From Desulfuromonas sp. (lineage in GTDB: Bacteria; Desulfobacterota; Desulfuromonadia; Desulfuromonadales; Geopsychrobacteraceae): a stretch of DNA of 64,000 nt. Made by a program: the position numbers and the translations under genes. Under the pieces are notes generated by a model that was given only the letters and a program-made list of their open reading frames with translations, was not told the origin of the DNA and did no database searches. Below are positions 9,994-12,024 of the stretch, in pieces. The stretch is taken from NCBI GenBank assembly GCA_002869695.1, contig PKUD01000087.1, positions 1 through 64,000 on the forward strand, in the 5' to 3' direction. The first letter of the stretch is position 1. Each line of letters starts with the position of its first letter.

Positions 9994-11061
9994 TCAGGCT
10001 CCACCACGCTCCTTGTGCCGGACAGCAGAGGCACTCCTGCATAACTTGCCGAAAGTCCGCTCCCGTCGGCGCCTTTCAGCAATGGATTCCGTATTGCGTT
10101 CCTGCTCTGTTTTGAGCTTCTGATAGTTGGCGAATCGTCTTGGGTCGATATCTCCCCGTTGGATGGCTGATTTTACTGCGCAGCCGTCCTCGCTTTGGTG
10201 TTGACAGTCATTGTAGCGACAACTCGTTGCGAGTTCTTCAATCTCTTCAAACAGGACAGAAACACCACTGGCACACTCACTGAGCTGCAGTTCGCGCATG
10301 CCCGGGTTGTCGATGAGGAGGGCTCCTCCCGGGAACATGTGCAGGCTTCTGGAGGTTGTTGTGTGGCGGCCCCTGGCATCATCCTCGCGAATCGCATTGG
10401 TCTTCTGGGCGACGGCACCACAAAGAGTGTTGACCAGTGTTGATTTACCTACGCCAGAAGATCCTACCAGGGCGATGGTCTGGCCAGCACCGCACCATGA
10501 ATGCAGTACCTCGACGGAGGACGGCTCCAGGGCATTGACCGTTTCAATCGCCCAATTGGAATTTATGCCTTGCGCTTGTTGGCGATAGTCAGAGACATGA
10601 TCGCTCAAATCTGACTTGGTCAGAACCAGTACCGGGTTCACTCCGGCTTCCAGTGCAAGCGCCAGATAGCGTTCCAGACGTGACAGATTGAAGTCCTGAT
10701 TACACGACGTAACGATAAACAGGGTATCGACGTTGGACGCGATCAGTTGCAGTCTGGCGTCATTCCCGGCAGCTCTGCGCCGGAACAGGCTTTTGCGCTC
10801 CAGCATTTTTTGCAGCTGACCGGTTGCGGAATCGATCAGCAACCAGTCACCGACCGTGGGAAGTTCTTCAGGATCTCGTAAATGCCAGGCTCCCGGCAGG
10901 GTAATCTGCTGCTGTCCATGCACGCTGGCAATATCTATACTGTTTCGGTAAACAGCAAAAACACGAGCGGGAAACGTCGATTCCCACTCTTCAAGGCTCA
11001 GTTGTTGTTGAAAAAAGTGGCTCCACCCCAGTTGGGGCAGAGAGTAATATGTATTTGACAT
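9994..11061 (-). CDS. rsgA: RsgA/YjeQ-type ribosome-associated GTPase
   Basis: This 355-residue circularly permuted GTPase has an N-terminal OB-fold (about 30-105) and G motifs in permuted order: TKSD (G4, about 147), GSSGVGKS (G1, about 200) and DNPGM (G3, about 250). The C-terminal zinc knuckle is C-x4-C-x-H-x5-C (CRYNDC...C). RsgA proteins act in late maturation of the 30S subunit. The ATG at 11061 was chosen because AAGGGGG precedes it; an ATG at 11097 has no ribosome site. The gene sits in the accessory block behind an elaborate leader, so it may be a second copy. Whether another rsgA exists cannot be seen here. Confidence 0.92.
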   Translation of the reverse strand: MSNTYYSLPQLGWSHFFQQQLSLEEWESTFPARVFAVYRNSIDIASVHGQQQITLPGAWHLRDPEELPTVGDWLLIDSATGQLQKMLERKSLFRRRAAGNDARLQLIASNVDTLFIVTSCNQDFNLSRLERYLALALEAGVNPVLVLTKSDLSDHVSDYRQQAQGINSNWAIETVNALEPSSVEVLHSWCGAGQTIALVGSSGVGKSTLVNTLCGAVAQKTNAIREDDARGRHTTTSRSLHMFPGGALLIDNPGMRELQLSECASGVSVLFEEIEELATSCRYNDCQHQSEDGCAVKSAIQRGDIDPRRFANYQKLKTEQERNTESIAERRRRERTFGKLCRSASAVRHKERGGA

Positions 11062-11225
11062 AGAAACCCCCTTCGGACGCTCTTGTCCGAAAAGCATTTT
11101 GGCCTGACATTGCCGTCAGGTAAATCTGGTTGGGTTTCTTATTTATCAGAGAAACCCGGCGCTATTGCCGGGCAAAGAGAGGGAATTAGGCGGGAAAAGG
11201 TTAAGCTCCCTGACCTCTCTTTGCC
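11062..11225 (-). promoter_or_regulatory. structured leader of rsgA with mutually exclusive hairpins
   Basis: Read on the minus strand the leader holds, in order: a 12-bp stem (GGCAAAGAGAGG at 11225-11214 with 11182-11171), a 6-bp stem (CCCGGC/GCCGGG, 11172-11155), an 8-bp stem (GGGTTTCT/AGAAACCC, 11157-11132), a 6-bp stem (11120-11103) and a 7-bp stem (11091-11072). GGGTTTCT occurs again at 11069-11062, directly between the ribosome site and the rsgA ATG, so AGAAACCC at 11139-11132 can pair with either copy. The second stem overlaps both the first and the third. This is the geometry of a translational attenuator. The pairings are seen in the sequence; the function is inferred. Confidence 0.55.
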
Positions 11226-11251
11226 TTTTTACGCGGGATTACAAGCTCCAT
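11201..11251 (-). CDS. possible 16-residue leader peptide upstream of rsgA
   Basis: An open frame MELVIPRKKAKRGQGA begins at ATG 11251 with a near-perfect ribosome site (AGAAAGGAG, five bases before) and ends in TAA. The left arm of the first leader hairpin lies inside codons 9-13 (KAKRG), so a ribosome on this frame would prevent that hairpin from forming. The peptide is strongly basic. It resembles leader peptides in arrangement only; I recognise no family. Confidence 0.45.
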   Translation of the reverse strand: MELVIPRKKAKRGQGA

Positions 11252-11361
11252 AAATTCTCCTTTCTTGGTATTTTTTATGTGTGGAAATTATCAGCAGGGC
11301 AATCGTCCGTCAAGGTGTGATTAGAGGCAAGATTCAAACAGGCATACCGTTTCAAATATCG

Positions 11362-12024
11362 TTACTTTTGGTAAGAGGCGAAGAAATGTGGGACCGGTGG
11401 GTCTTGTGTGTCGTCATAAGATTCGAAACTTTTTTCGTTTAAGCCACATCGCACAAAGCCATCTATTTCCTCTTTGTCGAGAGGAAGTGGAATGTCATCT
11501 TCTTGTTCTCCCTTGAGACGACTTCTGCATGAGACAAGAATATATCCCTTTGGTGCAAGCAGTGAGATCATAGCATCTCGTGCTTGTACTCTATACTTAC
11601 CGGGTAATACTTGAATTGTGTTGCATTCATATACCAAGTCAAAGTTTTCAGCCCAGTGTGATGGATAATCAAAAAGATCAGCGACAAGATAGTTGACCGT
11701 GGTCTCTGGATAGCGATCCTTACAAAGGCGTATCGCTTCCGGTGATATGTCAAAAGCGGTCACATCATACCCCTCGTCACTCAAAGCTTCAGCATCATCA
11801 CCAACTCCACATCCAACAACAATGGCACTGCAACCTGGCTGCTGCGAGCAACTATTTTTCAACCAGCTTAAAAGGTAAGGGTTCGGCTCAAGGTCTGCCC
11901 AGAAAACGGCTTTATAGTTCCCCTGCGCATCCGTGTAGATACTGTCAAACCATCCCATTGGATCGTCTCGCTCCTGGTAGGCTTTGACCATATTTTTGTA
12001 TGCAATCGGATCAAACTCTTTCAT
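11362..12024 (-). CDS. class I SAM-dependent methyltransferase
   Basis: This 220-residue protein has the Rossmann-like methyltransferase core: motif I IVVGCGVGDDAEAL (about residue 60), the acidic end of strand 2 in VTAFDIS, then LVADLFDYP and the post-motif strand. An N-terminal tryptophan-containing region (MGWFDSIY) could form the substrate lid. The nearest look is small-molecule methyltransferases of the thiopurine type, but the substrate is unknown. ATG 12024 was chosen because AAGGA lies five bases before it; ATG 12030 and TTG 12045 are in the same frame. It lies in the minus-strand accessory block. Confidence 0.8.
   Translation of the reverse strand: MKEFDPIAYKNMVKAYQERDDPMGWFDSIYTDAQGNYKAVFWADLEPNPYLLSWLKNSCSQQPGCSAIVVGCGVGDDAEALSDEGYDVTAFDISPEAIRLCKDRYPETTVNYLVADLFDYPSHWAENFDLVYECNTIQVLPGKYRVQARDAMISLLAPKGYILVSCRSRLKGEQEDDIPLPLDKEEIDGFVRCGLNEKSFESYDDTQDPPVPHFFASYQK

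Follow-up and report, generated by a model that had tools for sequence, protein, structure and literature searches.

A likely leader-peptide translational attenuator upstream of an accessory rsgA gene in Desulfuromonas and other bacteria

What controls the rsgA gene that follows a long intergenic gap in Desulfuromonas sp. contig PKUD01000087.1 (GenBank assembly GCA_002869695.1), and does a short ORF within that gap take part in the control? The window, i.e., the whole 64,000-nt stretch of DNA that was analyzed, carries this gap of 300 nt on its minus strand, between the end of the upstream gene at 11362 and the rsgA start at 11061. The downstream gene (9994-11061, minus strand, 355 aa plus stop, ATG at 11061) encodes an RsgA GTPase according to Pfam and TIGR profiles (PF03193, 162.6 bits with a cut-off of 30; TIGR00157, 148.6 bits with a cut-off of 100), and its product also matches RsgA structures in PDB. 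The same genome encodes a second RsgA (G000:C82), which is 42% identical to the window paralog; the sequence upstream of this other rsgA was inspected, and the leader arrangement described below is not present there. Our analysis indicates that the gap probably holds an erm/toiL-type translational attenuator, acting through a leader peptide, for an accessory RsgA; this is an attenuator whose inducer is unidentified and for which there are no expression, profiling or probing data.

A probable promoter lies about 33 nt 5' of the leader start, with a -35 element read from the sequence (TTGACG, 11308-11313, minus strand), a 17-nt spacer and a -10 element (TAATTT, 11285-11290, minus strand) that was assigned by its match to the promoter box of relatives and was missed by a stricter promoter scan of the window. 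The same box, TTGAC(A/G)-17-TARNNT, is found upstream of the leaders of four relatives (L013, L034, L062 and L065), and a promoter box of that score is present at 37 of 67 leaders versus 24% of shuffles. A terminator-like hairpin with a T-run is located on the plus strand at 11398-11425, within the 3' end of the upstream minus-strand gene.

The leader ORF (11201-11251, minus strand; ATGGAGCTTGTAATCCCGCGTAAAAAGGCAAAGAGAGGTCAGGGAGCTTAA, translated as MELVIPRKKAKRGQGA*) has 16 codons and is preceded by the Shine-Dalgarno sequence AAAGGAG (11257-11263), which is kept across leaders. Five RNA arms, all on the minus strand, follow one another from within this ORF to the rsgA start. Complementarity and folding define arm 1 (GGCAAAGAGAGG, 11214-11225), which lies within the leader ORF, and its partner arm 2 (CCTCTCTTTGCC, 11171-11182), which together form a 12-bp stem. 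Leader comparison defines hairpin 2:3 (CCCGGC-AATAGC-GCCGGG, 11155-11172), which overlaps arms 2 and 3; the 67 leaders used for the arm analysis were themselves defined by a hairpin of this CCCGG/CCGGG type. Sequence, comparison and folding agree on arm 3 (GGGTTTCT, 11150-11157) and on arm 4 (AGAAACCC, 11132-11139), which pairs with either arm 3 or arm 5. Arm 5, identified by sequence and comparison, is a second copy of GGGTTTCT (11062-11069) that overlaps the rsgA Shine-Dalgarno (AAGGGGG, 11067-11073, read from the sequence) and extends to the ATG. Folding places two further hairpins between arm 4 and the rsgA start: a less conserved one (CCTGAC...GTCAGG, 11103-11120), and hairpin X (CTTTTCGGAC...GTCCGAAGGG, 11069-11094), which lies directly 5' of arm 5, partly over the rsgA Shine-Dalgarno, and corresponds to the terminator-like site (11094-11069) reported by the terminator scan. 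The leaders of gammaproteobacteria have a hairpin at the position equivalent to hairpin X. In dinucleotide-shuffle tests of the window leader, the match of the ORF arm to its partner was significant (p=0.005), as was the 3:4:5 arrangement (p=0.010). The RNA as a whole is more stable than 199 of 200 dinucleotide shuffles (z=-4.2), with 1:2 plus 3:4 as the predicted fold. Much of this had been claimed by a first-pass annotation made from the sequence alone. Its 16-codon ORF with a strong ribosome site (11251-11201) held when the sequence was re-read, as did the 12-bp stem with one arm inside the ORF (11225-11214 with 11182-11171) and the pairing of AGAAACCC (11139-11132) with either of two GGGTTTCT partners (11157-11150 and 11069-11062). 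Its placing of the second GGGTTTCT copy between the rsgA Shine-Dalgarno and the ATG held only in part, since this copy overlaps the last three G of the Shine-Dalgarno.

Because a DNA-level similarity search returned only two clear relatives, homologs were gathered via the RsgA protein from Desulfuromonadales, gammaproteobacteria, and plasmids or second replicons, and their upstream regions were read directly. About 70 of these regions show the same ORF and arm arrangement. On a tree of 134 RsgA proteins, the leader is found upstream of 71 of the 111 genes in one RsgA paralog clade and of none of the 23 genes outside it, with 11 changes of label versus 44.6 in shuffles. The carriers include Thermodesulfobacteriota (Desulfuromonadales), Oceanospirillaceae/Oceanospirillales-like and other gammaproteobacteria, Vibrionaceae and others. 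The remaining 40 of the 111 clade genes have no leader, and one Desulfuromonadales group of 18 rsgA genes lacks it altogether. Since all carriers fall inside one clade, the leader is likely ancestral to the group and was lost repeatedly.

Genome searches gave the same picture of a single neighboring gene. In 369 gammaproteobacterial genomes, a covariance model built on the gammaproteobacterial leaders had five strong hits, every one directly before this rsgA. A pattern combining hairpin 2:3 with arm 4 matched ten times in 134 related genomes, always before this rsgA and once as a decayed copy, and its reversed control had no match there. These hits, all before this rsgA, indicate that the element belongs to that gene. 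Of the weak covariance-model hits outside rsgA (E 4e-5 to 0.009), five were also inspected and rejected, as none had the arrangement in the stretch that was read; for one of them (L182) that stretch was offset from the match. Several loci deserve separate mention. One is a decayed copy (L201, 1500-1840, genome G495), in which the 3' half of the leader is followed by rsgA in fragments. In another (L063, upstream of 2501), the leader is 403 nt long versus about 195 in its relatives, with about 200 extra nt, perhaps an insertion, between arm 4 and the rsgA site. Two near-identical, leaderless rsgA paralogs (L094 and L095) lie beside GNAT and helix-turn-helix genes on Shewanella and Vibrio plasmids, and have apparently been transferred recently.

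Across the leaders, the five consecutive arms remain complementary despite the divergence of their sequences, such that either 1:2 and 3:4 or 2:3 and 4:5 can form, and arm 5 spans the rsgA Shine-Dalgarno. In Desulfuromonadales, arm 1 is GGCAAAG(A/G)GAGG and arms 3/4/5 are GGGTTTCT/AGAAACCC/GGGTTTCT. Most gammaproteobacteria have CCGGGCAG as arm 1 and GGGGC/GCCCC/GGGG(T/C) as arms 3/4/5, and two further groups have GGGATTC/GAATCCCAA/TTGGGAT (L085 group) and GGGGTTTTTCA/TGAGAAGCCCT/GGCTTTTC (L150 group) as the latter. When each arm was paired with its own or with swapped partners over 17 sequence clusters, the own partner was better for 1:2 (p=0.00015), 3:4 (p=0.00005) and 4:5 (p=0.026), the last being statistically the weakest pairing; four leaders (L096, L099, L083 and L140) have no convincing arm 4 or 5. 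The alignment of gammaproteobacterial leaders contains both-sided changes in three pairs of helix 1:2 and in several other pairs, and compensatory changes were also found for the alternative structure. Shifting the partner by one column in this alignment reduces pairing from 88% to 51% or less. The first-pass annotation would have been refuted by a lack of conservation of the ORF or of the alternative pairing; the comparison instead supports it, both being kept from Desulfuromonadales to Vibrionales with compensatory changes in the arms. In L070, L072, L126, L085 and L087, the start region of the leader (e.g., ATTGTAGT, TTGTTATCC) is additionally complementary to that of rsgA (ACTACAAT, GGATAACAA). 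Its own-partner excess is significant over the 17 clusters (p=0.0036) and strong only in the L070 and L085 groups; possibly, this pairing closes rsgA when the leader is free of ribosomes.

The peptide is conserved only at its N-terminus, which in the approximately 70 leaders reads M, an optional E, then I/L/F/S/T/N, and then V (twice A). The start codon may be GTG or TTG (L062, L004), and start, Shine-Dalgarno and stop are retained. The C-terminal codons track RNA arm 1, so the basic residues of the window peptide are not conserved. No run of codons for a regulated amino acid was present in the leader peptides compared. The codon that precedes the conserved valine has T as its third base in every leader (ATT, CTT, TTT, AGT, ACT or AAT; 11245-11240 in the window), and a search that did not require this T found 46 leaders, all of which carry it. 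The T creates an NTG in the +1 frame, and in 42 of 71 leaders a stop of that frame comes directly after it, so that this start-stop element is not universal. As the first two positions of the codon vary while the third is fixed, a constraint on the RNA, together with or instead of one on the peptide, is indicated; we offer no explanation for it.

Arm 1 occupies a nearly constant place relative to the leader ORF. In all leaders but one, it begins at a distance of 17-31 nt from the A of the leader start codon, and, again with one exception, it finishes 4-18 nt short of the stop. On its leading side, a ribosome shields roughly 15 nt. With this geometry, a ribosome at the start leaves arm 1 free, whereas one at the stop covers it. 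That the geometry is shared when the arms have little sequence in common is the trace to be expected from selection on ribosome position. The ORF, the five complementary arms, their covariation, the position of arm 1 and the restriction to one RsgA clade are shown by comparison.

The consequences of ribosome position were predicted by folding each leader with a simulated ribosome, i.e., a ribosome-sized stretch held single-stranded. The mean cost to open the rsgA start was lowest for a ribosome at the valine codon (8.4 kcal/mol) and rose to 8.9 when it sat on the start codon, 9.9 when there was none and 10.0 when it sat at the stop. The difference between stop and an early stall at codon 3-4 was 1.64 kcal/mol, versus 0.14 in shuffles, and that between the ribosome-free state and the stall was 1.54, versus 0.26. 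By cluster means, rsgA was more accessible with an early stall than with a ribosome at the stop in 16 of 17 clusters. The difference (stop minus stall) was positive by more than 0.5 in 73% and negative in 11% of leaders, versus 39% and 30% when shuffled. The model thus predicts the direction of the switch, an early pause opening rsgA (ON) and completed translation closing it (OFF), and predicts that whether a ribosome-free leader is open or closed seems to vary between leaders. For the window leader, the opening cost was 13.6 kcal/mol with the stall, 13.6 without a ribosome and 16.6 at the stop, and the rsgA Shine-Dalgarno is still partly within hairpin X in the ON fold. These energies leave out kinetics and cotranscriptional folding. 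The first-pass annotation had proposed that stalling on the basic peptide, or failure to translate it, could switch rsgA translation. Comparison and folding support such a leader-peptide switch, without direct evidence from ribosome profiling or probing. Stalling on the basic peptide has to be corrected, as it is the first three or four residues that are conserved and not the basic C-terminus. As for the two signals, folding favors a pause at the first codons over absence of translation as the ON signal, and for the window's own leader the two states are predicted to be equal.

In the mechanism that we propose, the mRNA would start just 5' of the leader ORF. When the leader is translated to its stop, the ribosome would cover arm 1, so that arm 2 would pair with arm 3; arm 4 would then be freed to pair with arm 5 and the rsgA Shine-Dalgarno, and rsgA would be OFF. 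If a ribosome instead halts at the start or somewhere in the opening M-[E]-x-V stretch of three or four codons, arm 1 would remain free to pair with arm 2, arm 3 would capture arm 4, and the exposed rsgA start would be ON. By analogy, with precedent as the only support, the signal may be that ribosomes stall because of a ribosome-targeting antibiotic or some other fault in early translation. As expected of such attenuators, a short ORF that looks translated and has a Shine-Dalgarno of its own precedes the regulated gene. The leader also has mutually exclusive pairings of which one (4:5, the weakest) sequesters the downstream ribosome-binding site, and, as a prediction only, a downstream site whose accessibility is altered by an early-stalled ribosome. 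Its membership of the erm/toiL kind is inferred without one defining feature, namely a demonstrated stall at a defined codon upon addition of an inducer.

Among the other explanations, the one that survives best, though it is unlikely, is a sensor of initiation capacity that needs no stalling, in which a translated leader is OFF and an untranslated one is ON, as few active 30S subunits would leave arm 1 free. The five-arm parity does fold an untranslated leader into 1:2 plus 3:4, which is the predicted fold of the window, and such a sensor would be sensible for a 30S assembly factor. However, the ribosome-free leader is on average nearly as closed as that with a ribosome at the stop (9.9 vs. 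10.0 kcal/mol, with 8.4 for the early stall), and this explanation has no need for a conserved M(E)xV start. Transcription attenuation, with hairpin 2:3 as an intrinsic terminator and 1:2 as its antiterminator, is very unlikely. The TTTCTCT that follows the CCCGGC/GCCGGG hairpin of the window speaks for it, but no T-run follows the hairpin in the gammaproteobacterial leaders or the L085 group, a simple terminator scan of the window did not report hairpin 2:3, and the conservation of arms 4 and 5 as far as the rsgA start would be left without a role. As a conserved feature of the leader, an intrinsic terminator was rejected because its U-run is not conserved. Equally hard to sustain is a ligand- or protein-binding RNA (a riboswitch, or RsgA or a ribosomal protein acting on its own mRNA) with an incidental ORF. 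It is consistent with a structured, conserved leader upstream of a ribosome-related gene, but the start codon, Shine-Dalgarno and stop are kept, though the start can become GTG or TTG, no conserved loop or core exists besides the arms, and no Rfam match was found at the gathering score for the window and seven related loci. A chance ORF with chance repeats, for which only the shortness of the ORF speaks, is all but excluded by conservation and covariation across phyla.

The translational attenuator remains the preferred reading, and the closest system described so far is toiL, the uORF of E. coli topAI-yjhQ. There, tetracycline or retapamulin stalls ribosomes on the start codon, which exposes the topAI site and turns the gene on (PMC12121999). 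Both combine a short ORF with RNA structures that exclude each other and lie over the ribosome-binding site of the gene downstream. In E. coli, however, the toiL sequence pairs directly with the topAI site within a single hairpin, whereas the rsgA leader relays the signal through five arms; the target gene differs, and the inducer of the rsgA leader is unidentified. The attenuators of the erm, vmlR, cplR and vga(A) type, which control ribosome-protection genes (the last three cited in PMC12121999), likewise combine a leader peptide with alternative pairing that exposes the downstream gene upon stalling. The erm leaders have four arms, of which arm 1 is masked by the stalled ribosome. The rsgA leader has five arms and the opposite parity, so that masking of arm 1 closes the gene and an early stall leaves arm 1 free, and its target is a 30S-assembly GTPase and not a methylase or ABC-F protein. 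In trp and his attenuators, the ribosome's position on a leader peptide selects between overlapping hairpins. The rsgA leader shares this selection, but it has no regulatory codon run or conserved terminator and acts at the rsgA start. What is likely new is thus the target, the five arms with reversed parity, and the deep conservation. Ribosome-position attenuators are known for antibiotic-resistance genes, amino-acid operons and a toxin-antitoxin pair; none ahead of a ribosome-assembly factor was found in the open-access literature searched. Likewise, the earlier statement that no leader-peptide control of RsgA is known stands for the open full-text literature searched, subscription papers being outside its scope.

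In E. coli, RsgA functions at a late step of 30S maturation (PMC6912228). RsgA docks on the 30S subunit such that one domain sits in the A site, inspects helix 44, and is able to dissociate 70S ribosomes (PMC6912228). A role of the paralog in late 30S maturation is extrapolated by analogy from the E. coli protein. These activities, we infer, would be fitting for a protein that is produced while ribosomes are held up at a start codon. A bolder reading, which is no more than possible, is that ribosomes whose 30S subunit is immature, or blocked in the decoding site, themselves hang at the leader start and so open rsgA. If true, ribosome assembly would be under feedback control through the position of a ribosome on a short ORF, and the product would be the GTPase that itself monitors or resets the decoding site. 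The rsgA leader is old and widespread, marks an accessory RsgA clade that probably responds to translation stress, and offers a concrete handle on when and why bacteria retain a second RsgA.
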